DNA from: Candidatus Omnitrophota bacterium
GTDB taxonomy: Bacteria; Omnitrophota; Gorgyraeia; Duberdicusellales; 4484-171
DNA: 42,545 bases
Assembly (NCBI GenBank): GCA_028692655.1
Contig: JAQUWY010000013.1
Location: 1-42,545 of the forward strand
Direction: 5' to 3'
The notes beneath the pieces are model-generated. The model saw nothing but the letters and a program-made list of their open reading frames with translations. It was not told the origin of the DNA and did not search any database. This document shows positions 17,665 to 34,077 of the stretch, in pieces; within the stretch, counting starts at the first letter, position 1; each line of letters starts with the position of its first letter. The position numbers and the translations under genes are program-made.

Positions 17665-18339
17665 TTATCTTGTCCTGGCAGGAGAAGGTTTCGCGGCCCC
17701 GGTAGTTTTCATAAGCTCAACTTTAGTTTTAGCCTTGTCGTTAACCGCAGTAAAAGAAGACAGGCCTAATTCAACATTCAAAAGACGAGGATCGTCGGCA
17801 TTTTTTTCTATTTCAAATTTTCTTATAACTAGTAAAGGCTCCGATGAAGGTATCTTTTCTAAAATCCTGACTAAATCGTCATAATAAGCGAAAAAAGTTA
17901 CATTGAAGCCTAACTGCTTAATCTTTGTGGTTCCCAGGTTAATCAACCCCTGCGTATTATTTTTATTATTTCTGTCAAAAGCGCTATCTTTTGAAACCTC
18001 CTCGGTTAAAGTTAATTTTCCAAAAGAGCCTTCCTGGCGGATAATGATCCCTGCTTTTTTCATACCCTCAGTAGGCATTATTTCAGCAAAAGTAATCTTG
18101 CGGTTGAAATCTTCATTCTGAAGATAAGGTTTATCCCGATAAAAACTTTTAAGCTTAGCCTTGGCCTGTGAAGCTTGGCCAAGCATATTATTTATATTTT
18201 TTATTTCTAATTTAACCCGCCTTCCATAGTTATAACAAAAAATATCCATTAAAAAAACCAAAAGACAAACAAATGCCAAAACGATAAACAAATTTTTCTT
18301 AAAAAAACCTTTTTTTGGTAAAGCCAGTTTTATCTTCAT
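17665..18339 (-). CDS. pilO: PilO/GspM-like inner-membrane assembly protein
   Basis: The 224-residue protein has a short basic cytoplasmic start, one membrane helix (about residues 17-34), a coiled-coil (about 40-65) and a periplasmic domain ending in a beta-rich segment, the bitopic layout of PilO and GspM. These proteins link the PilMN platform to the secretin. Sequence identity to the family is not obvious by eye, so the call rests mainly on topology, size and position directly after a PilM-PilN fusion, with a four-base ATGA overlap. The C-terminal tail is basic and Pro/Ala-rich. Confidence 0.65.
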   Translation of the reverse strand: MKIKLALPKKGFFKKNLFIVLAFVCLLVFLMDIFCYNYGRRVKLEIKNINNMLGQASQAKAKLKSFYRDKPYLQNEDFNRKITFAEIMPTEGMKKAGIIIRQEGSFGKLTLTEEVSKDSAFDRNNKNNTQGLINLGTTKIKQLGFNVTFFAYYDDLVRILEKIPSSEPLLVIRKFEIEKNADDPRLLNVELGLSSFTAVNDKAKTKVELMKTTGAAKPSPARTR

Positions 18340-19994
18340 TTCAATTCCAACTCAATTTCGAATTTACGTTTTTTCTTACCGGTAAAATTGTCACTTTGCA
18401 AATACAGCGGTTCTTCTTCCGAACCGGGACGCCTGAGTATAACCTCCGCAAACACCCCTGAACGGGAAAGTTTTTCCGTAAACAACTTAAGCTGATCTAC
18501 CGCATCTTCAAGCGTGGCATCAATTACGCCCGATAACTTTATATTCTTAAAGTCTTGGCCCTCTTTGGCTTGAGAAGCAGATCTTCTGCGGCGGCCGGAC
18601 TCCGAAGACGATGATTCGCTGGAGAATTCAAAAGTTTCTAAAGCTGTGTTTGAGGGGATGTATTTAGCGATAATTTCGAGCGACTTGGTCTTTGAGGAAC
18701 TGACTTCCTGCATTTTTTTGACAAAAGCCTCTTGAATCTTGATTTGTTTGTTAAGCGTATCAATATTCTTCTCGGCTTTCATAACAGTATCATATTCGGA
18801 CTTTGAAAATTTACTCTTTATAACCGAAAGACTACGGTTCAAAAACTGCAGCCTGACAAAAAGAACAAAAAATACAACCAAAAGAAACGCTGCAGCTACG
18901 CCAAGAATATTACCAGAAAAAATTCGAAATTGCCTAATCTTTTTTTCCTTTCTAGCTTCGGAAGGCAAAAAGTTCAACGCGGGCTGGCGGCTGTGCATAC
19001 TCAAAGCCATACCAAGAGCATTGGCAAAAACAGCACCTGTTCCAGTAAGCTCCTGGGAAGGAAGGTTATCCATTGAAACATTTTTAAGAGCGTTCATATT
19101 AAAAAGGTTTATCTTACCCCCGAGTTTTTTCTTGAGTAAATCGGCATACACCTCTATTTTAAATATACCTCCGCTGAACCAGATAGAATCAATGATTTTG
19201 CCGCCGGAAATTTCTTTATAATACGCAAAAGAACGCCTTATCTCTGATACAAGATAACTCCAACTTCCCGAAACGGAATCCTGAGATTCGTTCTTTAGGA
19301 ATTTAGCCTCGGCTTCTGCCTCATTAATATGCTCGTGCTTGGCTATCGCCTGGACAAAGTCACGTGAAGCAAAAAGAATGTTCCTCACTAAAGAAAGCTT
19401 ATTATTAGAAAAAATTACTAAAGTTGTATTTGCATAACCTATATCGATAAAACACCAGTCACGGGAAGCTTCCGGAAGGTAACCCGCAGCATAAGCGGCT
19501 AAATTTGAAGCAGTAGAACCTATAGAATCAGGGGTAATTCCTCGATTGGTAAAAAAGGAAAAATATTTAAACACCTCTCGTCGCATTGCCGCGGCAGCTA
19601 AAATTGACAGCTGGCCGGCCCCCTTACTCTTGTGTTCCTTAAGCGTAACGTAGCGCACGATATCCTCTTCTGCCGGAACCGGACGAATAACTCTTCTTGC
19701 TTCATTGACAACAGCTTTGTCAAAATCAGACCGAGACATAGGGGGGAGGTCAAAAACCGCATAATTAACAAAAGTTGAAGGCACTGATACGCCCACATCC
19801 GCGGCTTTAAGTTTCTGCAAGGAAACATTTTTGTGCAAACTTTCAAAGAAAACATCTTCATCGATAATACCGCTATTATCATAAGGGGTTCTAAAATACT
19901 TCAGGCTCAAGATTCTAAAAACCCCGCGGCTATGCGTAACCTCGGTTGTTTTCGTTAAATATGTCCCGATGTCTATGCTAATTGCAGGCTTCAT
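18336..19994 (-). CDS. PilM-PilN fusion protein of the pilus/secretion platform
   Basis: The 552-residue protein joins two components that are usually separate. Residues 1-340 are PilM-like, with the actin-fold phosphate motif SIDIGTYLTK at the start, SVPSTFVNYAVFDLPPM, and FIDIGYANTTLVIF. Residues about 353-375 form a single membrane helix, followed by a coiled-coil and a PilN-like periplasmic domain (IPSNTALETFEF, then a VEVILRRPG-like region). The join resembles GspL, which also combines both functions. It starts one base after the gspF stop, with AAGGTAGG as RBS, and overlaps the PilO gene by four bases. A Ser/Arg-rich linker (SSSESGRRRRSA) lies in the periplasmic part. Confidence 0.85.
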   Translation of the reverse strand: MKPAISIDIGTYLTKTTEVTHSRGVFRILSLKYFRTPYDNSGIIDEDVFFESLHKNVSLQKLKAADVGVSVPSTFVNYAVFDLPPMSRSDFDKAVVNEARRVIRPVPAEEDIVRYVTLKEHKSKGAGQLSILAAAAMRREVFKYFSFFTNRGITPDSIGSTASNLAAYAAGYLPEASRDWCFIDIGYANTTLVIFSNNKLSLVRNILFASRDFVQAIAKHEHINEAEAEAKFLKNESQDSVSGSWSYLVSEIRRSFAYYKEISGGKIIDSIWFSGGIFKIEVYADLLKKKLGGKINLFNMNALKNVSMDNLPSQELTGTGAVFANALGMALSMHSRQPALNFLPSEARKEKKIRQFRIFSGNILGVAAAFLLVVFFVLFVRLQFLNRSLSVIKSKFSKSEYDTVMKAEKNIDTLNKQIKIQEAFVKKMQEVSSSKTKSLEIIAKYIPSNTALETFEFSSESSSSESGRRRRSASQAKEGQDFKNIKLSGVIDATLEDAVDQLKLFTEKLSRSGVFAEVILRRPGSEEEPLYLQSDNFTGKKKRKFEIELELK

Positions 19995-19995
19995 T

Positions 19996-21195
19996 TTACC
20001 CTACCTTTTGAAACAATTGCGTAAGCGGCATAAAAACTACAAGAGCCAGAAACATTACAGATAACCCCAAGATAATAATAATCATCGGCTCTAAAATTGC
20101 AAAAATACCCTCTATCTTGCGAGGTGTTTCCTTGTCATAAAATTTACAGGTTTTAGTAAATCCTTCAGCCAAACTCCCTGAAGTTTCGCCCACATGAACC
20201 ATTCTAACCATAAAAGAAGGAAAAACATTAGTAGTTGCTAAAGCTGAAGAAAGTTCTCCGCCGGTAAAAACGCTCTTTTTGACCATTTCTACCGCTGACT
20301 CTAAAAATTTATTCGCTATAGTGCCTTTAACCATATCTAAAGTGGTAACTATCGGTATGCCATTAAATAAACACAAATATGTTGCCTGGGCAAAACGGGA
20401 AATTCCCAAATCATAGAACATCTCGCCAAAAATAGGAAGCCGTAATTTATACTTATCAAAAGAAAGCGCTGCCGCGTAATTTCTTTTAATAATTAATTTT
20501 ATCATAAATACCAGCAGAAAGATAGCCCCCAATATATAATACCAGGTTTTTCCTACAAACTTGCTAAAGCCCATAGCAAGCTGGGTAACAAGCGGCAGTT
20601 CTGTCCCAAAATCAGAAAATATTGTTTCAAACCTTGGCAACACAAATATCACTATAACCGCCAAAGCTCCAATCATTATTATAGATAAAATTATCGGGTA
20701 TATCGCAAGGCCTCGAATCCTGGCTTGTAAGTCTTGCTGCCATTCAAGGTAATCTGACATTTGTTCCAGAGCCGCGCCCAGCCTTCCGGTAGCTTCTCCC
20801 CCGGCAACCACCGCCTTGTACAATTCAGAAAAAACCTTAGGATATAACGCCAAGGCATCTCTCAGAGTTCCTCCGGCTTCAACAAAGCTTTTAATGCTTA
20901 CTAAAAGCGAAAGCATACGTATATCCGTGGTATCTCCAATTAAAGTAGTTAAGCCTTCAAGAAGCGGTATTCCGCCATTGAGCAGAGCCGCGAGATTGCG
21001 GGTAAAAAGCAAAACTTCTCTTTTCTTAAGGCAAAGATTTTTACCTCGGGTAATATTGCCGATTTCTTCAGCGGAAATAAAAATATAGCCCATGCGTGAA
21101 AGGTCATCTATCAGGATAGACTTGTCGCTGACAATGGAGAAACCTCTCACTTTCTTCCCGAATCTATCTCTTACTATGTATCTATATGCCGGCAT
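19996..21195 (-). CDS. GspF/PilC inner-membrane platform protein
   Basis: The 399-residue polytopic protein transmits ATPase motion to the growing pseudopilus. It has two repeated T2SSF domains (about 70-190 and 270-395) with the typical LLFTRNLAALLNGGIPLLEGL and GEATGRLGAALEQMSDYLE motifs in the first copy and VHVGETSGSLAEGFTKTCKFYD in the second. Hydrophobic segments are at about 162-185, 217-235 and 368-390. The RBS GAAGGAA precedes the ATG. It is followed immediately by the PilM-PilN fusion. Confidence 0.96.
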   Translation of the reverse strand: MPAYRYIVRDRFGKKVRGFSIVSDKSILIDDLSRMGYIFISAEEIGNITRGKNLCLKKREVLLFTRNLAALLNGGIPLLEGLTTLIGDTTDIRMLSLLVSIKSFVEAGGTLRDALALYPKVFSELYKAVVAGGEATGRLGAALEQMSDYLEWQQDLQARIRGLAIYPIILSIIMIGALAVIVIFVLPRFETIFSDFGTELPLVTQLAMGFSKFVGKTWYYILGAIFLLVFMIKLIIKRNYAAALSFDKYKLRLPIFGEMFYDLGISRFAQATYLCLFNGIPIVTTLDMVKGTIANKFLESAVEMVKKSVFTGGELSSALATTNVFPSFMVRMVHVGETSGSLAEGFTKTCKFYDKETPRKIEGIFAILEPMIIIILGLSVMFLALVVFMPLTQLFQKVG

Positions 21196-21278: not shown

Positions 21279-22616
21279 CTATTCTTCGCGCCAACTTCCT
21301 GGTTCTACAACCACGGCATCTCCTGTTATTATTGTAGCAGGAAACACAACAACTGAACGTGGCCTGCTAAACCCCGTTTTAGTCCATTCAATGGTCCCAT
21401 CGGCGCTCAATTTACTAACTCGATTTCCTGTATACTCAGCTACCCAGCACTCATCAGTATCAGGATTGACTGAGACAGAGGTCGGCCCACTTAGTCCGGT
21501 ACAAGTCCATTCAATGGTCCCATTGGCCCTCAATTTTCTAACTCGGTTTCCTGAATACTCAGCCACCCAGCACTCATTAGTGTTGGGATTGACTGAGACA
21601 GAAGCCGGCCTGGTAAACCCCGATCTAGTCCATTCAATGGTCCCATTGGCCCTCAATTTCCTAACTCGACCTCCCAAATACTCAGCCACCCAGCACTCAT
21701 TAGTGTTAGGATGGGTTGATACAGAGACCGGTCTGCTAAACCCCGTTTTAGTCCATTCAATGGTCCCATCGGCTTTCAATTTGCTAACTCGATTTCCGTT
21801 ATAATCAGCTACCCAGCACTCATTAGTGTTAGGATTGACTGAGACAGAGGCCGCCAAGTTAAAACCCGTTTGAGTCCATTCAATGGTCCCATCGGCTTTC
21901 AATTTGCTAACTCGATTTCCTGTATACTCAGCTACCCAGCACTCATTAGTGTTAGGATTGACTGAGACAGACTGCGGCCTGGTAAACCCAGCAACAGTCC
22001 ATTCGATAGTCCCATTGTCCCTCAACTTACTAACTCGTCCTTCTGAATCTTCAGTTACCCAGCACTCATTAGTATCAGGATTGACTGAGACAGAATATGG
22101 CTCGTTGAATCCGGTGTTAGTCCATTCAATGGTCCCATCGGCTTTCAACTTACTAACTCGATCTCCCTCAAACTCGGCTACCCAAGCTTCTTCCGATACT
22201 GTTGGCAATCCTGAATTGACCAAAATGGCAGAGATGCGCTTATGTGTATCGCCTACCCAGCCGTGGGAAACAATCAATAGTTTATCAAGAACAGCCGGGT
22301 TAGTGTCCTGGACTCCAACCCAATACTGGCCTTCGCCCAAGTCTTCAGTTTCATCTAAGCCAAGCTCGCCGCGATGGTTGATATTGTCACCATTTATATC
22401 CATAGTCCAATTATCCCAATCATTAGCAAGTTCAACTTTTGCCCGCTCTACGCCGGCTTTGGCTAACTGGTAGGCGTCAGCGCTTCTTTGTTGATAAAGG
22501 TTTACTTTCAAAGTTGTGGTTGTCTTAAAAATAATTGCTGAAGCCACACCGACGATTATCAGCAAAGCCAATACAACATAAAACAAAGTCTGGGTTTTTA
22601 TTTTTCTCGCACTCAT
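21279..22616 (-). CDS. PilX/GspK-like pilin fused to a seven-repeat beta-propeller
   Basis: The 445-residue protein has an N-terminal membrane helix (about 11-30) followed by the AYQLAKAGVERAKVEL pattern found in PilX/GspK-type minor pilins. A short linker domain runs to about residue 140. Residues 143-430 are seven tandem 41-residue repeats of the form ECWVAEY-GNRVSKL-ADGTIEWT-TGF-RP-SVSVNPNTN. Each has the length and NHL/YVTN-like pattern of one propeller blade, so seven would close a ring. Copies 2-7 each carry a Cys; copy 1 has Ala there. There is no classical GFTLIE cleavage site, as is usual for PilX-type genes with degenerate sites. It would display a propeller at the pilus or pseudopilus tip. 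It sits six bases after the GspJ-like gene. Confidence 0.85.
   Translation of the reverse strand: MSARKIKTQTLFYVVLALLIIVGVASAIIFKTTTTLKVNLYQQRSADAYQLAKAGVERAKVELANDWDNWTMDINGDNINHRGELGLDETEDLGEGQYWVGVQDTNPAVLDKLLIVSHGWVGDTHKRISAILVNSGLPTVSEEAWVAEFEGDRVSKLKADGTIEWTNTGFNEPYSVSVNPDTNECWVTEDSEGRVSKLRDNGTIEWTVAGFTRPQSVSVNPNTNECWVAEYTGNRVSKLKADGTIEWTQTGFNLAASVSVNPNTNECWVADYNGNRVSKLKADGTIEWTKTGFSRPVSVSTHPNTNECWVAEYLGGRVRKLRANGTIEWTRSGFTRPASVSVNPNTNECWVAEYSGNRVRKLRANGTIEWTCTGLSGPTSVSVNPDTDECWVAEYTGNRVSKLSADGTIEWTKTGFSRPRSVVVFPATIITGDAVVVEPGSWREE
21330..22190 (-). repeat. Seven tandem 123-bp repeats encoding propeller blades
   Basis: The DNA repeats with a 123-bp period, for example GTCCATTCAATGGTCCCAT and CACCCAGCACTCATTAGTGTT on the plus strand recur once per unit. 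Neighbouring units are highly similar at the DNA level, including third codon positions, which points to recent duplication or gene conversion. Copy number may vary between strains, and assembly collapse is possible. The plus-strand ORFs at 21391-22473 are shadows of this array. Confidence 0.92.
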
Positions 22617-22622
22617 TCTCTA

Positions 22623-23291
22623 TTAAGGTATATCATTTAAAGCTGTTACACTGGCTCTTAAAGTCTGAGTCTGGCTATTAGTTTGACCGGGATATTCTAC
22701 TGTAAGAATAACTTTAAAGTTCTGGTTAGTTAAATCATATTCAAAAATCGAGAAAGGGTCGGTGGTAACTGAATCAACAGGGTTGTCAACTACTCCCGCC
22801 CTAACCACCCCACTGCTATCGCGCACCTCCCGAAATAGCTCTTGACGATTAGCATTCGCTGTCTGCAAAGAAATTTCAAAGTCTGGATCACAAGTGTCAT
22901 CTACGCCGCGGTACAAAGCAGCACTGTCTCCGTAAACGGTAATTGGAACAACAGTAGTTTCAAAACCCCTCCAATACCAAACACAAGGGTCAATAGAGGT
23001 TATTCCATTATGATCAATATCACTTTGGAAAGTAACTGCGTCATAATCAGCAAAAGGAACAGGGCTAACTTCAAAACCAGCACCCCAACGAGCCTCATTA
23101 ATCATAAAATCTATTGCCCAGTTGGCATCTTGGAGAACTTTAGCTTTATCGACAAGTTTTGCTCCGGAACGGGTAGTATTAAATAAAATACTCCCAGTCG
23201 CTGCAATTACTATCGCGAAAATAGAAATAACAACCGCCGTTTCAGCCAGCGTAAGGGAAGTTTTTGCTTTAGTCTCTTTCATCATCATCAC
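22623..23291 (-). CDS. GspJ/PilW-like minor pseudopilin with unusual cleavage site
   Basis: The 222-residue protein has an N-terminal prepilin-like helix, LTLAETAVVISIFAIVIAATGSI, preceded by KTS. The +5 Glu is present, but position -1 is Ser instead of the near-invariant Gly and +1 is Leu instead of Phe. The rest is a beta-rich globular domain ending in a strand-rich region (FKVILTVEYPG), consistent with a GspJ/PilW minor pilin. The start lies inside a GTG-ATG-ATG-ATG run that overlaps the preceding gene by up to 23 bases, so the exact first Met is uncertain; MKETK is most plausible. Confidence 0.75.
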   Translation of the reverse strand: MMMMKETKAKTSLTLAETAVVISIFAIVIAATGSILFNTTRSGAKLVDKAKVLQDANWAIDFMINEARWGAGFEVSPVPFADYDAVTFQSDIDHNGITSIDPCVWYWRGFETTVVPITVYGDSAALYRGVDDTCDPDFEISLQTANANRQELFREVRDSSGVVRAGVVDNPVDSVTTDPFSIFEYDLTNQNFKVILTVEYPGQTNSQTQTLRASVTALNDIP

Positions 23292-24321
23292 TAGGACTCA
23301 TGCATCCTGGATCATCAGGAAAATCAATTAAACAATCTCCGTCATCGTCAAGATTGTTGCTGCAGCGCGGATACGGATTCCCGCAACATAACCTTCTGGT
23401 GTCGTAATTGTTGCCACCTAAAGAGGAGCAGGTACAGATAGCAACCCACGTTGCCCCATTCCACTTATACGCAGCATTATCACAGCAGTTTGCCATAGGA
23501 CCATAACGTTGATAACTTTGAACACTAGCAAACCCTATTACATTGCATGCGTGCAATCGAGAAACATTATCATCATTAAGCAAAAAATCACAATTTGCTC
23601 CCTGCCTGGAACAGTTGTACTTTTGATGACACTCAGGACCTGAATAGCGGTCGCTCACGGGATTATACTGCGGAAAAGCTGTAAAAGTGTGTTCGACTGC
23701 CTCATTGATTTCATAATCGTCGTAACAACTGGGTATATCAATCTGTTCATCTAACTCACAACAATTGCCATCTACGGCACAATCGCAAGGTTGCGGATTG
23801 CAGGCAGGGCCTCTAGATCCGCCTATCAAACTGGATACAGCTATACTCCCGTCATCAACTCCATCATTGTTGGAATCCCACCCGACTAGCACCCTGATTA
23901 AAGCCAGGTTCTCCGGCCGGTCAAAAGAATCCGGATTGGCGGCTTCATCCTCAATATCTCCGTCTTGATCAAGATCCCAGGAACCTTCAGTAAGCCGGTG
24001 AAAACTATTAAAAGGGTCACCAGAATCAGCTGGATTCAGGTTAAGCGTTCCGTAGTCTTCAGCTTCGAGTTCAATGAAGCCGGGATCAGAAGGATCATCA
24101 TATAACGGGTCAAAAAAAGGATCGCTCAAATCAAGAAGGGCTAAATCTTCTAATTTATCTTGAGCCAATTTATGAGCGGTCATTTTATAATTGGCAAGAC
24201 GGATAGTGAGAAAAGCTTTGCTTATCGCCGGCATAATTCCGGCAATAATAACAGCTAAAATAGTTATGGTTACGGCAATTTCAATAAGACTAAAACCCTT
24301 ACTTGCTCTAAATTTTAGCAT
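23269..24321 (-). CDS. Large prepilin with cysteine- and aspartate-rich C-terminus
   Basis: The 350-residue protein begins MLKFRASKGFSLIEIAVTITILAV, a canonical prepilin leader with cleavage after Gly and +5 Glu, resembling GspI/PilV types. The head domain is acidic with many Asp-rich turns such as DLDQDGDIEDE and DSNNDGVDDG, similar to calcium-binding DxDxDG loops. Residues from about 175 are rich in Cys (PCDCAVDGNCCELD, CNVIG, NCCDNAAY, CTCSS, LCCGNPYPRC). The tail has CSNNLDDDGDCLIDFPDDPGC, a pattern seen in many secreted repeat proteins. It is probably an extracellular, disulfide- and calcium-stabilised tip or adhesin subunit. The S23 cassette lies between it and gspH. Confidence 0.85.
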   Translation of the reverse strand: MLKFRASKGFSLIEIAVTITILAVIIAGIMPAISKAFLTIRLANYKMTAHKLAQDKLEDLALLDLSDPFFDPLYDDPSDPGFIELEAEDYGTLNLNPADSGDPFNSFHRLTEGSWDLDQDGDIEDEAANPDSFDRPENLALIRVLVGWDSNNDGVDDGSIAVSSLIGGSRGPACNPQPCDCAVDGNCCELDEQIDIPSCYDDYEINEAVEHTFTAFPQYNPVSDRYSGPECHQKYNCSRQGANCDFLLNDDNVSRLHACNVIGFASVQSYQRYGPMANCCDNAAYKWNGATWVAICTCSSLGGNNYDTRRLCCGNPYPRCSNNLDDDGDCLIDFPDDPGCMSPSDDDERD

Positions 24322-24341: not shown

Positions 24342-24865
24342 CGTTTATCGGCTACGATGCCCTTATTAAACAAATGTAAAGATCAAAAATCAAATAGCAA
24401 AATTACAGTGTAAAATGCAAATACTTCAAAATCATTTTTTACCTTTGAGAGTTAAAATACTTGATGCAAAAATATTAGGAGACTCTTCAAGTTCTTTTAA
24501 AAACCAGGCTACTTCTTCGGATTTAGATCGTTTGGCATCACGGAGCAAGGAAAGCCAAATCTTACTTTCATTGGCTGATTTCAGTGAAATGGTAAAAAAG
24601 TTTGTAAATTCTTTTTTGCTGCTGGCTGACTGGCCTTCAACGTAATTTTCCAGGATACTTGTGCCACTTCTTAATAATTGATCGCCGATTTTTCTAGAAA
24701 CATTATCGTTAGGTAATCTGTCTAAAAACTCTGTAAGCGTTAAGGCAAAGTTATATAGCCTTTTTTTGAAGTTCTCTTTAAAATTATTAAATTTTGCATT
24801 TTGCATTGTCATTTTGATTTTTAATTTAAATTCATACGGGCTTCATTACCCTGACCGATAAACGT
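24342..24865. repeat. Nested inverted repeats bounding the S23 gene
   Basis: Three inverted pairs surround the S23 gene. CGTTTATCGG (24342-24351) faces CCGATAAACG (24855-24864); AAAAATCAAA (24385-24394) faces TTTGATTTTT (24813-24822); AAAATGCAAA (24412-24421) faces TTTGCATTTT (24793-24802). A further motif, ATACGGGCTTCATTACC (24834-24850), recurs with two changes near 37414. The unit fits exactly in the gap between gspH and the next pilin. This looks like a small mobilisable cassette, but no target-site duplication was identified. Confidence 0.55.
24432..24812 (-). CDS. Four-helix-bundle protein (23S rRNA-intervening-sequence S23 family)
   Basis: The 126-residue protein matches the small four-helix-bundle family found in 23S rRNA intervening sequences and scattered through genomes of uncultivated bacteria: an aromatic first helix, IGDQLLRSGTSILENYVEGQSASSKKEF in the middle, and FTISLKSANESKIWLSLLRD in the third helix. 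Function is unknown. It is unrelated to pili, interrupts the run of pilin genes and is flanked by inverted AT-rich repeats, suggesting insertion as a small cassette. The first or third codon (MTMQ) could be the start. Confidence 0.9.
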   Translation of the reverse strand: MTMQNAKFNNFKENFKKRLYNFALTLTEFLDRLPNDNVSRKIGDQLLRSGTSILENYVEGQSASSKKEFTNFFTISLKSANESKIWLSLLRDAKRSKSEEVAWFLKELEESPNIFASSILTLKGKK

Positions 24866-24877
24866 ATCTTTTAATCT

Positions 24878-25369
24878 TCACAAACGCTCCCAGCTAATAT
24901 GCCCGGTTAAACTACGGATAGTTATGTTGGCTCTCGCTCCCCGGCGCCAAAGCTCAATCACCAAAGGATCTGCTATTGCACTATTCAACCCTCCGGAAAC
25001 ATGGTTAAAACTAAATTCAGTGGTTCCGGGAGCGCTCTGTAAAACAAGGCCATCAACATCTATCTTCTTCCTGCCCACGATACTATCCGGTTCAATTCCG
25101 TCGGGATCAATTTTAAAAATTGTATAGCTGCCATCAAGAGTAGTGTCGCCATCAACATCAAAATTTATCAAATAATCATGGCGAGTTGCCCTGGCCATTG
25201 CCCTGACCCAGGACAAATCTCCTGCCAATTTTTGAGTTTGAGTTTCAAGGTACCGAGAAGAAACTACAGAGAAGGAAACACCTATGGTGACTGAAATCAG
25301 AGCAATGATCGCCGTTACAATCATTATTTCAATAAGAGTAAAACCTTTTTTAAAATTCAAAGTTTTCAT
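24878..25369 (-). CDS. GspH/FimT-like pseudopilin
   Basis: The 163-residue protein has the canonical prepilin leader KKGFTLIEIMIVTAIIALISV and then a GspH/FimT-type domain: a helix leading to LAGDLSWVRAMARATRHDYLINFD, beta strands, and a C-terminal INITIRSLTGHISWE-like ending, where a terminal strand of this type is common to FimT/GspH. It would be a minor pilin of the initiation complex. Its start overlaps the preceding TPR-like gene by four bases (ATGA). Confidence 0.9.
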   Translation of the reverse strand: MKTLNFKKGFTLIEIMIVTAIIALISVTIGVSFSVVSSRYLETQTQKLAGDLSWVRAMARATRHDYLINFDVDGDTTLDGSYTIFKIDPDGIEPDSIVGRKKIDVDGLVLQSAPGTTEFSFNHVSGGLNSAIADPLVIELWRRGARANITIRSLTGHISWERL

Positions 25370-26277
25370 TGTTTACAACTCGAACAACCCTTTGCCGGCT
25401 CAGCCTCATTGGGTTTATTCCTGCCGGCTTCAGCGCCTTGGCTAAAACTACTCATTATCTTCCCCGACTTAGCATCAAGGTAATACCCTCCTCCGAAAGG
25501 GTCCTTGGGTATTAACTCTATCAACCCCTCCTCTGCCAGCTCATTCAAATCTTTGGGCAGGCGGCCATAGTTTTTAGAAAATTCCCTTACCTTTTCCTCA
25601 AGCATAACTATATTGCTCAACCATTCAATTTTAAGTTTTATCCAATCTAATTGTTGGGGATCGGTAACTGAAGCTTCAAGCCCCTTTAAATACAGAAGCC
25701 CCATGCCGGCTTTACCGGCCCGATAGTAAAGCATTGGCTGATTGCTCTTTAGATAATTTGGTGCTCCCGGTAAAATTGAAGCCTGCTGATAAAATTGAGC
25801 AGCGCTAAGATAATCTCCCAATTGATAATAATTAAAACCTATCCAATAAGGTATCTCCCATTTCAAAGGATTAAGGCGCAAGCCGGACTCTAAAAACTTT
25901 ATACCGGTAGATAAACTTTCCTTGTCCTGAGTCATTACCACTCCTCCAAAAAAATAGGCCTGTAGCAATTCAGGGTTTAATGTTATTGCGGCTTCAAAAT
26001 TTTTCTGAACCCAGTAAACTTTATCTGAGTAGGAAGGGAAATTATCGGTAATAGCCAAAATACCTTTTATGTAGTAGGCATCGGCCAAAACTTGGCGAAA
26101 GCCTCCTTGAATGAGCTCTAAATACTTAGTATTGGGCACAAAATAGGTATATTTTTCATAGGAAAAAGAAAAGTGCTCTAAGCGCCGGGAGGTAAAAACG
26201 AGCGCGGCCAAACAGCAGGGAATCAGGAGCCCTATCAGTACTCTTTCTTTTGAAAGACAAAAAGGTTTATCAGCCAT
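25366..26277 (-). CDS. TPR-like membrane-anchored protein of unknown function
   Basis: The 303-residue protein has one N-terminal membrane segment (about 13-29) and then helical repeats resembling TPRs (for example FEAAITLNPELLQAYFFGG, LESGLRLNPLKWEIPYWIGFNYYQLGDYLSAAQFYQQA). The C-terminal part has a segment with LPKDLNELAEEGLIELIPKDPFGGGYYLD, which resembles the end of many GspG-type pilin heads, and a final CSSC. It lies between an ABC transporter pair and gspH, overlapping both, so it is translated with them. It may be a scaffold for pilus assembly. The 5' end overlaps the permease gene by 43 bases and no RBS is clear. Confidence 0.7.
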   Translation of the reverse strand: MADKPFCLSKERVLIGLLIPCCLAALVFTSRRLEHFSFSYEKYTYFVPNTKYLELIQGGFRQVLADAYYIKGILAITDNFPSYSDKVYWVQKNFEAAITLNPELLQAYFFGGVVMTQDKESLSTGIKFLESGLRLNPLKWEIPYWIGFNYYQLGDYLSAAQFYQQASILPGAPNYLKSNQPMLYYRAGKAGMGLLYLKGLEASVTDPQQLDWIKLKIEWLSNIVMLEEKVREFSKNYGRLPKDLNELAEEGLIELIPKDPFGGGYYLDAKSGKIMSSFSQGAEAGRNKPNEAEPAKGCSSCKQ

Positions 26278-26996
26278 ACAATAAAAATATAAACCAAACT
26301 ATACAAAGTTATCCAAATAAAATATCCCGCCGTAGGAAGCCCTGAGTAGAAAATCTTATTGTTAATTTCGAATTTATCAGCATTGGGAAGGATAAAATAT
26401 ATTGCCCGCAAAAGCTTTTTTTGTAACATTCCTCCATAAGCATTTGTAATTGCCAAAGCGCTTGGCAAAGCTTCACTGCTTAAATAAACGAACAAAGCCG
26501 CCAAAAGAGCTACGGTGCTTGATGAAAATAAAGTTGAAAACAAAGAGGCAATGCAGACAATAATCAGCATTTTTAAAAAAATCGGATATAACGCCGCTAA
26601 AATCAGCGGTAAAAACTTTCCATAAAAAGTTGATATAAGGCAAAAGGCCGCACCGGCAAAAACAAGGTAAAAAAAAGACAAGGCAGCGTATCCCAGAATT
26701 TTTCCGGTTACTACCTCTAAAGGCGTAAAATTTGAAAGATATACCTGGATTATGCGGCTCTCTTTCTCCCGGAAAAACCCGAAAATAAAACTAAAGGTTA
26801 CCAGGACAACCGCAGTCAACTCAATCCCAATTATTCCGGCATCCTGCAAAACCTTCAAGGAATATCCAACGGAAAGCTTACCCAAAAAAGCGCAAAACCC
26901 CAGATAAAAGAAAAAGAAAAAAATAACCCCGAAAAAAAATTTATCCCGCGCGGCTTCCTTAAAATTAAGCAACGCCAGAGAAAAGATTTTCTTCAT
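26235..26996 (-). CDS. ABC-2 type transporter permease
   Basis: The 253-residue membrane protein has six predicted hydrophobic segments, beginning near residues 22-40 after an amphipathic N-terminus (LALLNFKEAARDKFF), and the pattern of ABC-2 permeases. The start overlaps the stop codon of the ATPase gene by four bases, so it is the partner permease. The substrate is unknown. Position inside the pilus run suggests a role in surface assembly or in exporting something used by it, but simple neighbourhood cannot prove that. Confidence 0.88.
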   Translation of the reverse strand: MKKIFSLALLNFKEAARDKFFFGVIFFFFFYLGFCAFLGKLSVGYSLKVLQDAGIIGIELTAVVLVTFSFIFGFFREKESRIIQVYLSNFTPLEVVTGKILGYAALSFFYLVFAGAAFCLISTFYGKFLPLILAALYPIFLKMLIIVCIASLFSTLFSSSTVALLAALFVYLSSEALPSALAITNAYGGMLQKKLLRAIYFILPNADKFEINNKIFYSGLPTAGYFIWITLYSLVYIFIVWLINLFVFQKKEY

Positions 26997-27850: not shown

Positions 27851-28393
27851 TTAGTCAGATGAAATTAACATATCCAGTTCAACAAGGGCCAAAGAATCAT
27901 CATAGCGAACCTGGCCTACTGCTGCGTCAGCTGTCCCATCTAAAGCTAAGTCTATTTTTTCAGCCGAAGCAACAGGAACCGGGCCGGCAGCTGCTCGCGC
28001 TTGAGCTGTAGCCAGAGCTAAGTAACGAGCGTTAACCGCTGTACCCGCATCATCATCCCAATCAATTAGAGCGTCATTGCGGTATGCGTATATCCCGCCA
28101 AAACGGGTAGTCGAAGGCCAAGTTTCAAGATAAGGCCCATCCCACATAGTTATAGTACCACCGGCACAATCATCATCAGCTAAAAATGCCTCTTCACAGC
28201 CATCATCCGGCCAAATTGCAGCATCAGTATAAATAGCTAAAGCTGCCGTTTTTATACTTTTGTAATCCGCCATAGTAGCCGAACGATTCGCTTTCTCAAT
28301 AGCTTTAAAAGCATTGGGAGCGATAATTGCCGCCAAAACCGCTATAATGGCAATAACAACAATCAGCTCAATCAGCGTAAAACCCTTTCTCAT
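27851..28393 (-). CDS. Type IV pilin / GspG-like major pseudopilin
   Basis: The mature protein begins at the canonical leader MRKG-FTLIELIVVIAIIAVLAAIIAP. I place the start at ATG 28393 (180 aa) because GAGGAGGTG lies directly upstream; the ORF track extends 26 residues further without support. After the helix come a GspG-like AMADYKSIKTAALAIYTD-type segment and an acidic Cys-containing loop (GCEEAFLADDDCAGG), then YRNDALIDWDDD. The strong RBS and the adjacent terminator suggest high expression. Confidence 0.92.
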   Translation of the reverse strand: MRKGFTLIELIVVIAIIAVLAAIIAPNAFKAIEKANRSATMADYKSIKTAALAIYTDAAIWPDDGCEEAFLADDDCAGGTITMWDGPYLETWPSTTRFGGIYAYRNDALIDWDDDAGTAVNARYLALATAQARAAAGPVPVASAEKIDLALDGTADAAVGQVRYDDSLALVELDMLISSD

Positions 28394-28428
28394 CCGCACC
28401 TCCTCAATTTTCCCCTGACACCAAGCCA

Positions 28429-28444
28429 GAAGAATTGATTCTTC
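28429..28444. other. Hairpin in the pilin leader region
   Basis: GAAGAAT (28429-28435) and ATTCTTC (28438-28444) form a perfect inverted repeat about 35 bases before the pilin start. The gap 28394-28546 also holds AAACC-GAAA-GGTTT, a GNRA-loop hairpin after the previous pilin gene. Such structures may stabilise pilin mRNA or cap the upstream mRNA end. No clear promoter was identified in the gap. Confidence 0.4.
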
Positions 28445-28546
28445 ACCAACCAAAGATCGGCAAAAAACCATAATACTATTTTCAAATTACCCAATCTATG
28501 TTTAAACCTTTCGGTTTGAGTATTCGCCTTTTTATAGTATCGCTAC

Positions 28547-29173
28547 CTATGGTGACCCTATTTCCGGAAGTGCAATCACATAATACGAACGGTAACCGGC
28601 ATTATTAAGCATCGTACCGTTCCTGCAAGTATCACGGTGTAATTCAATCGTGTTTGTTTCATTCTGATTAAACCCTAAAACAGCAAGTGTAACGCGCTCT
28701 GCCGCCGGCACTCCTCCTGTACAAGCAACCGGATCAGTCGGCCAATCAATGACATGGTTGGGATCGTAGGCGTAAAAAAACTCATCACCACGGCTATTAT
28801 ACAAAGGGTCGCGAGGAATCGGCCCGTTTATATATCTACGAACAGCCCGGTCAAACGCCCCATCAACACGATTGGCAACACTGCACCTGCCGGAACTTGA
28901 CTGTTGTCCGCGAGCCCCAATACATTCTCCAACCCAATCAAAACTTGGATTACCTCCAGGGAAAAGCACAGCATTGTCACCCGGGCCGGGATAATGGCCG
29001 TTATCATCATAAAAACCTTCAACTGCTAAAGTTAAAACCTGCATATCAGAAACCCGCTTGGCATCGCGGGATTTCTTTAAAAAGTGTTCAACATTGGGCA
29101 CAGCAATACTTGCGATAACAGCAATTAAGGCAATCACCACGGAAACCTCAATCAGGGTAAAAGATTTTTTCAT
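28547..29173 (-). CDS. Type IV pilin-like protein with Ser at the cleavage site
   Basis: The 208-residue protein begins MKKS-FTLIEVSVVIALIAVIASIAVP, a pilin helix with Ser in place of Gly at position -1. The start at ATG 29173 has GGGAG eight bases upstream; the longer ORF-track version starts at a TTG. After the helix is the GspG-like RDAKRVSDMQVLTLAVEGFYDDNGHYPG, followed by a large head with four or more Cys (GECIGARG, GRCSV, ACTGG, DTCRNG). It is the first pilin gene after gspE. Confidence 0.88.
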   Translation of the reverse strand: MKKSFTLIEVSVVIALIAVIASIAVPNVEHFLKKSRDAKRVSDMQVLTLAVEGFYDDNGHYPGPGDNAVLFPGGNPSFDWVGECIGARGQQSSSGRCSVANRVDGAFDRAVRRYINGPIPRDPLYNSRGDEFFYAYDPNHVIDWPTDPVACTGGVPAAERVTLAVLGFNQNETNTIELHRDTCRNGTMLNNAGYRSYYVIALPEIGSP

Positions 29174-29212
29174 AAATTCAACTCCCTGTTTCAACCCAAA
29201 CTATTTTAAAAA

Positions 29213-30907
29213 CTAAAGTTCTATATCCTGAGTTACCCTGAACACTTCCTCGGCAGTGGTAACTCCGGATAACAGCTTCTCTATTGCTGCCTCACGCAAA
29301 ACAACCAGGCCGTTATTACGGGCAGCAGCGCGTATCTGGTTAGCTGAGGCTTTTTCTAAAACTAATCTTTGAATCGCCTGGCTATTATCCAACAGTTCAT
29401 AAATACCGATTCTTCCCCGGTAACCGGTGTTATTACACAGCTTACACCCTTTACCCTTAAACAACTTTACAGAACCAGAGCCTTCTCTGTCAATGCCTAA
29501 AGCTTTGAGTAATCCTGCTTCAGGAACATATTCTTGCCGGCATTTATCACAAATTTTTCGCACCAGCCGCTGGGCAAGCACGCCCAATAGAGAACTTGAA
29601 ACCAAAAAAGGTTCAACCCCCATATCAACAAGGCGGGTAAACGCTGAAGGAGCATCATTGGTATGCAAAGTAGAAAGGACAAGGTGCCCGGTTAAAGCGG
29701 CTTGAACTGCTATCTCAGCAGTTTCTAAATCCCTGATTTCACCCACCATTATTATGTCGGGGTCCTGGCGCAAAAAACTTCTTAAAGCGCTGGCAAAAGT
29801 AAGGCCAATTTGCGGGTTAACATTTACCTGGCGCATACCATGGAACTGATATTCTACGGGATCTTCTACAGTCATAATATTTACATCTTCTTTATTTAGT
29901 TTCTGAAGGACAGAATAAAGAGTGGTTGTTTTACCGCTTCCTGTAGGCCCGGTAACAAGAATAATTCCATAGGGGGAAGTAAACATATTCTGAAACGTCT
30001 CTAAGCTGTTTCTGGGAAAACCCAGGGATTCTAAGCCTAAAGTCAAACCGGTTTTATCAAGCACTCTTAAAACGACATTTTCTCCGTAGACCGTGGGGCA
30101 AGTTGAAACCCTGAAATCTATATCTCTGCCTTCAACCCGCATGCGTATCCGCCCGTCCTGAGGCAGGCGTTTCTCGGATATATCAAGGCTGGCCAAAATC
30201 TTTATCCGGGAAGTAACAGCACCCTGTAACAGCTTGGGCAAGACATATTGTTTGCGCATAATCCCATCCAGCCGGTATCTTATATTTACGATAGTTTTTT
30301 CAGGTTCAATGTGTATATCGGAAACTTTATCGTGAACAGCTTGGGAAATAATCAAATTTACCAGCTTCAATATATTGAGTTCCTGCTTCTGATCCCCCTT
30401 AAGCAGTTTATCCTTATCCACAGTAGAAATGATCGCTTCTACCGTTCCGGAAACCTGATAATGCTGTTCTATGGCCCAGAAAATATCAGACTCGGTAGCA
30501 GCAAGAGTTTTTATCTGCAAGCCTGTCTGCCGACGTAATTGGTCTATGACCATCACGTCGTTAGGATTCGCCATAGCCACTGAAAGTACATTTTCGGAAC
30601 GAAATAACGGCATACTTTTAAATTTTTTTGCTTCATCTTCCGGAATAAGAGAAAGAATCTTAGGTTCAATAACATAATCAGCAAGGCTTACTGTTTCAAT
30701 CTCCATTTGGTTAGCCAAAGCAGTATTTATCTTTTCAGCACTGGCCCAGCCTCGCTCAATAAGTATTTCTCCCAGGCGCTGGCCGGTAATTTTCTGGTCA
30801 GCCAGGGCCTGGCGCAAAATGCCCTCAGTAATTATTTTCTGCTCGATGAGTATCTCACCAAGCATCTTTTTTCCTTGTGGAACTTGGGGCTTATTGTCTT
30901 CAGGCAT
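29213..30907 (-). CDS. GspE/PilB assembly ATPase
   Basis: The 564-residue hexameric motor powers pilus or pseudopilus extension. An MshEN/T2SSE N-terminal domain (about 25-150) precedes the ATPase core with Walker A GPTGSGKTTT near 319, the Asp box EDPVEYQ, Walker B DPDIIMVGEIRD, a His box LSTLHTNDA and a CDKC...CKLC zinc module at about 449-489 ending in GYRGRIGIYE. MshEN domains often bind cyclic di-GMP, so control by the second messenger is plausible. RBS is AAAGGAG. No PilT-type retraction ATPase is in the window. Confidence 0.97.
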   Translation of the reverse strand: MPEDNKPQVPQGKKMLGEILIEQKIITEGILRQALADQKITGQRLGEILIERGWASAEKINTALANQMEIETVSLADYVIEPKILSLIPEDEAKKFKSMPLFRSENVLSVAMANPNDVMVIDQLRRQTGLQIKTLAATESDIFWAIEQHYQVSGTVEAIISTVDKDKLLKGDQKQELNILKLVNLIISQAVHDKVSDIHIEPEKTIVNIRYRLDGIMRKQYVLPKLLQGAVTSRIKILASLDISEKRLPQDGRIRMRVEGRDIDFRVSTCPTVYGENVVLRVLDKTGLTLGLESLGFPRNSLETFQNMFTSPYGIILVTGPTGSGKTTTLYSVLQKLNKEDVNIMTVEDPVEYQFHGMRQVNVNPQIGLTFASALRSFLRQDPDIIMVGEIRDLETAEIAVQAALTGHLVLSTLHTNDAPSAFTRLVDMGVEPFLVSSSLLGVLAQRLVRKICDKCRQEYVPEAGLLKALGIDREGSGSVKLFKGKGCKLCNNTGYRGRIGIYELLDNSQAIQRLVLEKASANQIRAAARNNGLVVLREAAIEKLLSGVTTAEEVFRVTQDIEL

Positions 30908-30943: not shown

Positions 30944-33208
30944 TTATTCGTATGAATCAAGAATTTTGCGTATTTCTTTTTTTCGTTCTTTCTGATAACG
31001 CTCTTGAGCAGCTTCTTTAGAGTGTTTCATTATTGTCGAAATTTTACTAATATACTTTTCTGTGCTCAGGTAACCCGGTCTTAAACCTTGTATCTGTTGA
31101 AATTTATTAAGCGCCTGAGGGTAATTTTTCTCCTTATAAAGCGATATTGCCAATCTGTACATAGAGGTTAACTGTTCTCTTGACGCCTGCCTTTGCTCTT
31201 TCTCTTGGCGGTTAAGATAGGCTTCTTTTTGTTTTTCCATAATCTTCGGAATAACCTCTAAATAATGGCTTGTGCTCAAATACCCCGGTTTCATGCTTTG
31301 TACTTCCTGGAACTTAACCAAAGCCTGCGGGTAATTCTTTTCCTTATAAAGTGATATTGCCAACTTGTATACCGAAGCAAGCCGTTCTTTAAAAGCTTGT
31401 TTTTGTTCTTTTTCCTGTTTAGCTAAAGAGGCCGATTTTTGTTTTTCTATCAACTCCGGAATTATTTTTAAGTAGTGAGATGTGCTTAGATAATCCGGCT
31501 CCAGGCTTTGCACTTCCTGGAACTTAACCAAAGCCTGTGGGTAATTCTTTTCCCTATAAAGTGATATTGCCAGCTTATATACCGAAGCAAGCCGTTCTCT
31601 GAAGGCGTCTTCTTTGGCTTTATCTTGCCTGAGAAGCTTGGCTTTTTCCTGGCTTTGAGCAAGTTGCTTTTCCCTTTCAATCATCTGGGGTATTAGTTTA
31701 AGATAGTGCGCAGTGCCTAAATAGCCGGAAGAGAGCGCCTGGACTTCCTGGAATTTTTTATAGGCTTCTGAATACTTTTTTTCCTGATAAAGTGTGAGAG
31801 CAGCGTCATAGAGCTGTCTGACTTCTTTTTTTTCGATTAATTTTACAGTCTCAGATTCTTGAACTTTCTCAGCATTCATTTGAGCCGGAATCCTGAATTC
31901 AAGGAACTCCCTTGCTTCTTTGTGGTTTGGATCAAGCGCTAATATTTCAGCAAACAGCCTGCGCGCTGTTTCCATATCGCCTCCGGAATAACAGTATAAA
32001 GCCTCGCCATACAAAGCGTTTACCTTGTCACTTAAAGTTTGCTGCTTGAGTTCTTTCTGCGCGGCTTCTTCTTTTTTCGTTTCTTCGGCTTTTTTTTCTT
32101 GCTCTACCTGTTCTGCAGTTGGTATATCACGTAAGGGCTTTAATTTTAAATCTGTTTCTTTTCCGGAAACCTCAGCCGTAACTCTTTTATCCTGAGAGGT
32201 AACATAGTCAATTTCCTGAGATGTGATTACAGTGGGTGAAACGAATATGACAAGCTCGGTTTTTAAATACTGCGTCTTCTTACTTTTAAAGAGATACCCT
32301 AGGTAAGGTATATCTCCCAATAAAGGAATCTTAGTTTCACCTTCAATGGCTTTATTTTTAATTAGGCCCCCGATAATCAAAGTCTGCTTGTTACCTACAA
32401 CCACCTTTGTTCTGGCCTGGCGCGTTTCGATAATCGGAATAGTATAAGCAATATCTTCGGCGCCCGGAGTCCTGACAGTAAGGGTATAATCACTGGTCTT
32501 TTCGCTCACCTCCGGCTGTATGTCCATGCTGATTTTACCGTTTTCACTTATTGTCGGGGTCACCTTAAGAATAATGCCGGCATCCTCAAAATTAACAGTC
32601 CAGCCGACATCGGTCCCGCCTTCAGTGGTTGAAACCTCAGGCTCAGCCCAGGGATACCTTTCTATTACCCTGATTTCCGCTTCGCAGTTATTGACAGTGG
32701 TAATACTGGGCGCTGAAAGTATATCGGTATCATACTGGTTAGCCAAGGCCTGCATAACCACGTTTATATTGTCATTGGCAATAGTAAGAGTAAAGGGTGT
32801 CTCGGAAGCTGTAGTTGTATTAGGAGGATAATACGTTGACTTGTAAGGTATCGCTTCGGTAATACCGTCTGTAGGTGCTACAGAATACATATTAAAATCG
32901 CCAATTTTTAAACCGCCTTTATTGGCAAAAAGAGTCCAGTTAACGCCTAAACTGCTTTCTCCCTCAAGCTTGACTTCAACAACCCTTGCTTCTATATGGA
33001 CTTGTTGAGGGGAAACATCAACCATGGCCAAATACTCTTCCACCTTTTGTATATTTTCGGGATAATCAATGATCATGAGGGAATTTGGCTCATCTCCAAA
33101 CAAAACCTCACCATCTCCGGAGAGCAGTTTTTTTACATTAGAGATACTCTCTCCGTAAACCGGAAAAGCAAGCATAAGGCATATTATTGTAGAAATTATT
33201 TTCCTCAC
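30944..33208 (-). CDS. Secretin pore protein with C-terminal TPR array
   Basis: I place the start at GTG 33208 (754 aa) because AAAGGAGGG precedes it, giving a signal peptide MRKIISTIICLMLAFPVYG. An N1-type segment (NSLMIIDYPENIQKVEEYL) follows, then the secretin core (about 50-340) with VHIEARVVEV, ILSAPSITTVNNCEAEI, PTISENGKISMDIQPEVSE, RTKVVVGNKQTLIIGGL and a GDIPYLGYLFKSK ending. After a Lys/Glu-rich linker, residues about 400-754 form a TPR-like array. Typical secretins end soon after the core, so this long extension is unusual. The N0 domain is missing here and is supplied by the preceding gene. It forms the outer-membrane channel. Confidence 0.9.
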   Translation of the reverse strand: MRKIISTIICLMLAFPVYGESISNVKKLLSGDGEVLFGDEPNSLMIIDYPENIQKVEEYLAMVDVSPQQVHIEARVVEVKLEGESSLGVNWTLFANKGGLKIGDFNMYSVAPTDGITEAIPYKSTYYPPNTTTASETPFTLTIANDNINVVMQALANQYDTDILSAPSITTVNNCEAEIRVIERYPWAEPEVSTTEGGTDVGWTVNFEDAGIILKVTPTISENGKISMDIQPEVSEKTSDYTLTVRTPGAEDIAYTIPIIETRQARTKVVVGNKQTLIIGGLIKNKAIEGETKIPLLGDIPYLGYLFKSKKTQYLKTELVIFVSPTVITSQEIDYVTSQDKRVTAEVSGKETDLKLKPLRDIPTAEQVEQEKKAEETKKEEAAQKELKQQTLSDKVNALYGEALYCYSGGDMETARRLFAEILALDPNHKEAREFLEFRIPAQMNAEKVQESETVKLIEKKEVRQLYDAALTLYQEKKYSEAYKKFQEVQALSSGYLGTAHYLKLIPQMIEREKQLAQSQEKAKLLRQDKAKEDAFRERLASVYKLAISLYREKNYPQALVKFQEVQSLEPDYLSTSHYLKIIPELIEKQKSASLAKQEKEQKQAFKERLASVYKLAISLYKEKNYPQALVKFQEVQSMKPGYLSTSHYLEVIPKIMEKQKEAYLNRQEKEQRQASREQLTSMYRLAISLYKEKNYPQALNKFQQIQGLRPGYLSTEKYISKISTIMKHSKEAAQERYQKERKKEIRKILDSYE
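30960..31825 (-). repeat. Tandem 210-bp TPR-encoding repeats in the secretin gene
   Basis: Three units repeat with an exact 210-bp period (for example TATAAAG-GATATTGCCA at about 31136, 31346 and 31556), with a fourth, more divergent and slightly longer unit. Each encodes a 70-residue block: SVYKLAISLY-EKNYPQALVKFQEVQS, then a YLSTSHYLK helix and a Lys/Gln-rich coiled segment. High DNA similarity suggests recent expansion. Confidence 0.88.
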
Positions 33209-33255
33209 AGGCCCTCCTTTATATTTTTTACACAATCAAACGGCTCTTATTGCGT

Positions 33256-34077
33256 TTAATTACCGCTAGTTGGAGCGTCACCGATAGTGTCAGTATCGCC
33301 TAAGGTAAATTCAGGCTCCTCTTCTTTCTGATCTTCGACTATTATTTCCTTAGAACTTATATATTTAAGCTTAAACACCCTGCTTGTCATTCTTCCGTCA
33401 ACCGCCTGAATAAAATTTTCTACCTTATTGACATTATCAGGATAATCAATAACCATTATAATATTTCTTTGCCTGCCCAGAAGGATTTTTCCAATAGGAG
33501 AAAGAAGGTCATAAATGTTCGCCGTTGCTGTTGAAGAACCATCTCCGGAATCTTGAGAAGAAACCGGATTCTCGCCCGAGGTATAAGACGATGCAGCCAC
33601 GCCTTTTAAAAAACTTTCCGCGTTTATGTGCTTAAAGGCAATGGTTTTAGTAATAAGATTAGGCTTTACAACAACAACCCCTTTGTTTTTCTCTAAACTT
33701 AAACCGTACATATTAGCTATATTTTCAAGCGCGTCATCAAGAGAAAGGTTAGTGAAACTGGCAGTAATCTCGCCTTCAACGCGCTCGTCAACCAATATAT
33801 TGAAATCATAGTCGTGGGCTATTAAACGGAAAAAATCCGCAAGCTCAGCATTCCTTAGCTCAATAGAATATTGTGGTTGGTCACCTTCAAGGCGTTTAAC
33901 TTCAATTAAAGGCAGCTTTTCAGCAGTACCATCTGCAGTAATTTTACTATCTGCAGAAGTGCTTTTTTTAGTGCTTGAAGCGGGACTGCCGCTGATTCCG
34001 GAACTGTTTTGAGAAAAAACCGGAATTGTTAAAATGGCCGCTAAACCAAACAAAAAAATTACTCGTAAAATATTCAT
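33256..34077 (-). CDS. Separate secretin N-domain protein (N0-N1)
   Basis: The 273-residue protein has its own signal peptide (MNILRVIFLFGLAAILTIPVFS) and a Ser/Thr linker. A secretin N0/STN domain follows (YSIELRNAELADFFRLIAHDYDFNILVDERVEG and LSLDDALENIANMYGLSLE). Next comes an N1-type domain ending in RNIIMVIDYPDNVNKVENFIQAVDG, and an acidic C-terminus. It stops before any pore-forming core. The same N1 motif opens the next gene, so the two together resemble one PilQ/GspD split with a duplicated junction. The ATG overlaps the metalloprotease gene by four bases. It could act as a periplasmic collar for the secretin. Confidence 0.85.
   Translation of the reverse strand: MNILRVIFLFGLAAILTIPVFSQNSSGISGSPASSTKKSTSADSKITADGTAEKLPLIEVKRLEGDQPQYSIELRNAELADFFRLIAHDYDFNILVDERVEGEITASFTNLSLDDALENIANMYGLSLEKNKGVVVVKPNLITKTIAFKHINAESFLKGVAASSYTSGENPVSSQDSGDGSSTATANIYDLLSPIGKILLGRQRNIIMVIDYPDNVNKVENFIQAVDGRMTSRVFKLKYISSKEIIVEDQKEEEPEFTLGDTDTIGDAPTSGN

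Follow-up and report, generated by a model that had tools for sequence, protein, structure and literature searches.

What is the role of a gene that joins a pilin-like N-terminus to a run of seven repeats and lies within a pilus operon? This question was addressed for a Candidatus Omnitrophota bacterium using a window of 42,545 nucleotides, which is the whole stretch of DNA that was analysed. The ORF at 21279–22616 on the minus strand starts with ATG and encodes 445 residues, in which a pilin-like N-terminal domain comes first, then an unbroken series of seven repeats of 41 residues each, and last a short tail at the C-terminus. The gene is present in a single copy in the genome (1.65 Mb, 62 contigs, of which the window is C35), and its parts were delimited as follows.

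21279..22616, minus strand: K-position (PilX/GspK-like) modular minor pilin, whole gene, assigned from the ORF, its operon place and short orthologues
22206..22616, minus strand: N-terminal pilin module, residues 1–137, from alignment with short K pilins and the model
21327..22187, minus strand: seven contiguous 41-residue (123-bp) repeats
21336..22196, minus strand: seven-blade propeller, residues 141–427, 28 strands, from Pfam, AlphaFold2 and Foldseek
21282..21335, minus strand: C-terminal tail, residues 428–445, ending GSWREE, from alignment with short K pilins

The gene occupies the K position of a minor-pilin operon

The operon around the propeller gene is of the type IV pilus/type II secretion kind, with HIJK, GspF and PilM, and the propeller gene takes the K (PilX/GspK) place in it. 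The minus-strand order is secretin parts, PilB/GspE ATPase, two pilins, ABC transporter, TPR protein, H, an S23-type gene, I, J, K, GspF, PilM and a PilN-like gene, and the components were assigned as given below.

33256..34077, minus strand: secretin N-domain protein (STN 5.9e-7)
30944..33235, minus strand: secretin with C-terminal TPR repeats (Secretin 1.9e-45)
29213..30907, minus strand: PilB/GspE assembly ATPase (T2SSE 3.5e-139, PilB 1.8e-190)
28547..29194, minus strand: pilin (N_methyl)
27851..28471, minus strand: pilin (N_methyl)
24878..25369, minus strand: H-position minor pseudopilin (GspH-like)
23269..24321, minus strand: I-position minor pilin, 350 aa (N_methyl 1.6e-5; NF033662 below cut-off)
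22623..23291, minus strand: J-position minor pilin (GspJ/PilW-like) with no passenger, at the same place as its orthologues
19996..21195, minus strand: GspF/PilC platform protein (T2SSF 1.1e-46)
18336..19994, minus strand: PilM (PilM_2 3.7e-17)
17665..18339, minus strand: probable PilN/PilO-like membrane protein, from its position and N-terminal hydrophobic segment

Judged by its length, PilM probably contains a fused PilN-like part. The PilN/PilO-like protein and the J pilin gave no match in Pfam. The H and I pilins have ordinary cleavage sites and the J pilin has Ser at −1 of its apparent site. The I pilin is 350 aa long, whereas its short relatives have ~126–176 aa, and it carries a Cys-rich C-terminal passenger with an acidic double-disulfide-like motif at the end. 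Elsewhere in the genome, a prepilin peptidase and two copies of PilT over the cut-off were found, and PilT would fit a retractable pilus.

Several other features of the locus were noted. A long TPR array is fused to the secretin (30944–33235), and the secretin N-domains are encoded by a separate gene (33256–34077). The region 26235–27703 on the minus strand places an ABC transporter ATPase, a permease and a TPR protein within the pilus operon, as is also the case in the sister-genus genome G006. Between the H and I genes lies an ORF of the four-helix 23S_rRNA_IVP (S23) family (24432–24812, minus strand). This ORF is missing in G006, where H and I overlap, and therefore looks like an insertion; as the genome gave no reverse transcriptase match, it is unlikely to be an accessory protein of a diversity-generating retroelement. 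A second minor-pilin cluster in the same genome as the window, on contig C33 (L067:4829–9095), contains two sets of I/J/K-like pilins, and its K members carry other C-terminal passengers.

The seven repeats form a closed propeller in the model

Tandem Repeats Finder reported an array with a 123-bp period, 6.7 copies and a score of 967. The 41-aa units begin at residues 144, 185, 226, 267, 308, 349 and 390 with zero spacer between them. The preliminary description had spoken of seven nearly identical 41-residue repeats; the number and length were correct, and the near-identity was overstated, as the units are 59–78% identical in protein and 67–88% in DNA (mean blade identity ~70%). These values indicate fairly recent duplicates that fall short of near-identity. 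The genome being a draft, the array might have collapsed during assembly; against this, the repeats differ by 12–33% in DNA and their count suits a ring.

Pfam matched the propeller to Vgb_lyase (2.8e-22) and NHL (1.1e-12), and the best solved relatives by sequence were virginiamycin B lyases (2z2n/2z2p, E about 1e-14). The propeller is thus of the NHL/virginiamycin-B-lyase lineage. AlphaFold2, run on the single sequence with no alignment, gave a pLDDT of 90–97 over residues 141–420 (about 95) and exactly 28 strands (7 × 4) between residues 141 and 427. When this model was compared with the PDB by Foldseek, 1569 matches below 0.001 were obtained, among them the designed seven-blade propeller v31WRAP-T (7bid), with a target-normalised TM of 0.93 and an rmsd of 1.5 Å in a superposition spanning 293 alignment columns on a target of 286 residues. 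This similarity to a closed designed propeller indicates that the modelled ring is closed. The closed seven-blade propeller expected earlier, for which structure prediction had been named as the check, was therefore recovered. The strand count suggests that closure is probably of the velcro type, as blade 1 does not have its innermost N-terminal strand and the last strand (419–427) would supply one.

The BC and DA loops form one face of a propeller. All five of the most variable repeat columns fall in or beside these loops, and mean entropy was 0.95 for the columns near the two loops against 0.35 for the rest, a modest asymmetry (Mann-Whitney p 0.03) under a face assignment of our own. The dN/dS values were below 1 on both faces (0.64 for the variable face and 0.25 for the other), and thus no positive selection was seen on either. 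A diversity-generating retroelement was rejected, as a reverse transcriptase was looked for in the genome and not found and the variable columns have no adenine-only pattern. A defence system was also rejected, given that PADLOC returned no match.

The propeller lies between the pilin module and a conserved tail

The pilin-like nature of the N-terminus, as first described, was upheld by the K position in the operon, the likeness to short K pilins and a modelled helix of 62 residues. This hydrophobic alpha-1 helix spans residues 3–64 and is followed by a beta hairpin, in a pilin-module model of low confidence at residues 32–140. The pilin assignment is thus based on synteny, on the sequence common to short K pilins and on the helix, and not on Pfam. 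PilX_N (PF14341) did not match the query and matched 3 of the 10 aligned relatives (best 3.2e-8), a pilin profile gave no match to the query N-terminus alone, and the T2SSK/GspK model gave none in Pfam or NCBIfam.

When five short K pilins were aligned with two propeller-bearing proteins from which the propeller had been removed, the helix at the N-terminus proved to be common to them, together with a motif resembling AG.E.AK and the end (S/T)W(R/Q)(Q/E/K). The SW(R/Q)-type ending is common to short propeller-free K pilins, in which it reads SWRQK, TWRQT, SWQEQ or SWQEF. Because propeller-free K pilins have the same C-terminal end, the propeller has the pilin domain on one side and a conserved tail on the other.

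Glycine is the normal residue just before the cut in a prepilin peptidase site. The site in this protein is KTQ/TLFYVV, with Gln at −1 instead of Gly, and a cut after this Gln would give a mature K pilin that starts with T-L-F-Y-V and has no Glu at +5. The same Gln at −1 was found in all six other same-order K pilins aligned, the short orthologues among them, and other members have Gly, Ala or Ser there. As Gly is missing at −1, processing and entry into the filament are not assured.

Propeller-bearing minor pilins recur in Omnitrophota

The order I-J-K-F is the same in six relatives (G003, G036, G007, G013, G011 and G031), in which the K pilin has 140–175 aa and no propeller; H was detected in some of them, and PilM wherever the locus extended far enough. 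Across 384 Omnitrophota genomes, propeller-bearing minor pilins were found in at least four, namely this one, G006, G028 and G252. When the Vgb_lyase profile was used for another scan, zero pilin fusions were added among proteins with a readable N-terminus, and the proteins that it found mostly look like secreted or lipoprotein forms. The closest relative of the propeller is encoded by a Candidatus Omnitrophota MAG (JAHKAJ010000024.1).

A search for the same fusion in related genomes had been suggested earlier, and the sister genus of the same family (G006, locus L021) was found to carry propeller repeats at the identical K site, in a protein of 749 aa with 14 repeats. This protein was modelled poorly (mean pLDDT 53), so its reading as "2 × 7" is taken from the repeat count. 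The blades of the two proteins have a mean identity of 44%, whereas G006 blades 10–13 reach 63–75%, suggesting that the two arrays have some of their blades in common, while the rest have diverged or arisen by renewed amplification. The other propeller carriers are a 439-aa K-type pilin with seven NHL-like repeats in a PilT...PilM operon of G028 and a J-type pilin with an NHL propeller in G252, where K is plain.

The I and J pilins of G006 also have large passengers. The passenger of its I pilin (L021:3051–4433) is glycine-rich with runs of GGGGG. The acidic Cys-rich double-disulfide-like motif is on I here (23269–24321) and on J in G006 (L021:4453–5997), which suggests that modules move among the tip subunits. 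In G028, a 781-aa J-type pilin (L065:3690–6035) with a repetitive passenger resembling a parallel beta-helix adjoins the propeller-bearing K. Separately, a 4340-aa ORF at L022 (G243:C6) encodes a giant propeller-bearing protein, in which over a dozen repeats of the YVTN/NHL type were counted.

Comparison with known systems

The preliminary description knew of no standard family with this exact fusion. A similar protein has, in fact, been published, namely PilX2 of Nanosynbacter lyticus TM7x (Saccharibacteria), a PilX-type minor pilin whose C-terminal part is a seven-blade propeller. Deletion of PilX2 lowers host binding in this host-associated ultrasmall bacterium (PMC12206443). PilX2 likewise has a non-canonical signal peptide, with no PilD signal peptide predicted (PMC12206443), whereas its propeller is of the RCC1 type as compared to NHL/Vgb here, and the phylum differs.

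In Streptococcus sanguinis, PilB (vWA) and PilC (lectin) are also modules grafted on a small pilin of the tip complex (PMC8179133, PMC9934059); the modules differ from a propeller that precedes a conserved tail, and PilB has the canonical Gly at −1 in contrast to Gln here. GspK of type II secretion shares the K position and the absence of Glu5, and its pilin module also has an additional domain built in (PMC8179133), but this insert is an alpha domain. The tip adhesin PilC/PilY1 also brings a propeller to the end of the pilus, together with minor pilins (PMC7541494, PMC8179133), but it is a separate non-pilin protein. Its domain PF05567 did not match the propeller-pilin protein, nor did it match anything in the genome, although the control genomes were equally silent.

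As for the propeller itself, virginiamycin B lyase (2z2n/2z2p) has the same seven-blade lineage and repeat length; it has a catalytic histidine that is absent here, and the protein studied here differs from it also by its pilin N-terminus. Recent amplification of blades is known in all major propeller lineages, and such freshly amplified propellers likewise consist of highly similar, recently duplicated blades (PMC9218822, PMC6805158); in principle they do not differ from this one except in the carrier protein. No report of an NHL-pilin fusion was found in the literature searched. Thus, the exact combination of an NHL-type propeller with a K pilin is unreported as far as we searched, while the approach is already known.

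A proposed tip pilin for attachment or recognition

We consider it fairly likely that the protein is a modular tip pilin that displays its propeller for attachment or recognition. The pilin module would fill the K position of an H-I-J-K minor-pilin complex that initiates a type IV pilus or pseudopilus. Its N-terminal helix would insert the K pilin and leave the closed propeller exposed at the far end of the filament, where one propeller face would bind a partner cell, polymer or surface, and PilT retraction would then pull on the bound propeller. The analysis showed the fusion, a ring that closes in a confident model, the operon position, the placement before the tail, propellers on the K or J pilin of four pilus operons in Omnitrophota, and PilT and a prepilin peptidase elsewhere in the genome; incorporation into the filament, location at the tip and binding as the function are inferred.

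In type IV filaments, the tip is the site assigned to the K subunit, which lacks Glu5 (PMC9934059). Pilins of modular build occur widely, with 264 architectures (PMC8179133), and those at the tip bind ligands of the host, as in S. sanguinis (PMC8179133, PMC9934059). The present protein resembles such modular type IV pilins in that a hydrophobic alpha-1 helix is joined to a domain type with uses outside pili and the gene is surrounded by pilus genes. Omnitrophota commonly have type-4a pili, and host-dependent traits have been proposed for them (PMC10066038). Together with PilX2, these precedents make attachment or recognition at the tip the best-supported mechanism. The missing catalytic histidine and, weakly, the greater variation near one propeller face also speak for it. 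Nanosynbacter PilX2 and the host dependence proposed for Omnitrophota suggest, by analogy, that the likeliest ligand would be the surface of another microbe.

The main alternative, which appears unlikely, is the tip of a pseudopilus in type II-like secretion, modelled on a proposal for the GspI-J-K tip: the propeller would bind periplasmic exoproteins and the complex would push them through the secretin. The H-I-J-K gene order, the GspF-like platform and the secretin agree with such a system, as does the fact that GspK too is of modular build and carries an inserted domain (PMC8179133). However, PilM, the PilB/MshE-type ATPase and PilT elsewhere in the genome favour a type IV pilus, no T2SSK domain was found, and the propeller recurs in the PilT/PilM operon of G028.

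The operon comparison bears on a further and clearly less probable alternative, in which a PilY1-like propeller would mainly stabilise and prime the tip complex, with binding being secondary. The operon is present in six relatives whose K has no propeller, which argues that the propeller is not generally needed for assembly. PilY1, which has a C-terminal propeller, primes assembly along with minor pilins (PMC7541494, PMC8179133). The fusion could replace PilY1, which was unmatched in the genome in a search that was likewise silent in its control genomes.

It is very doubtful that the helix remains uncleaved and holds the protein in the inner membrane with a periplasmic propeller. Gln in place of Gly at −1 would agree with this; yet the same Gln occurs in the passenger-free short K pilins of related operons, Gly, Ala or Ser is found at −1 of other members, and the ordinary sites of H and I and the prepilin peptidase also speak against an uncleaved helix. 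Least probable of all is a virginiamycin-B-lyase-like or lactonase-like enzyme carried on the pilus. Vgb lyases gave the best matches among both profiles and PDB sequences, but Val381 stands where the lyase has its catalytic His270, a single His is present in the whole propeller and the NCBIfam lyase score is 73 against a cut-off of 600 bits; lyase function was therefore rejected.

Implications for Omnitrophota

A modular tip pilin for attachment or recognition would extend propeller-bearing tip pilins from Saccharibacteria to another mostly uncultured and probably host-dependent phylum. The propeller lineage is unrelated to that of Saccharibacteria, which suggests repeated invention of the solution seen in PilY1. 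How the tip complex may tolerate bulky modules is hinted at by the conserved C-terminal tail that follows the insert. We tentatively raise the possibility, with limited confidence, that the Omnitrophota tip trio I-J-K could be an interchangeable display platform, in which different minor pilins carry propellers (7, then 14 blades), solenoid-like repetitive modules and Cys-rich modules, those on K being followed by a conserved docking tail, and in which blade duplication might regenerate the binding face and so allow rapidly changeable partner recognition without PilY1. These proteins are named as candidate attachment proteins for Omnitrophota.
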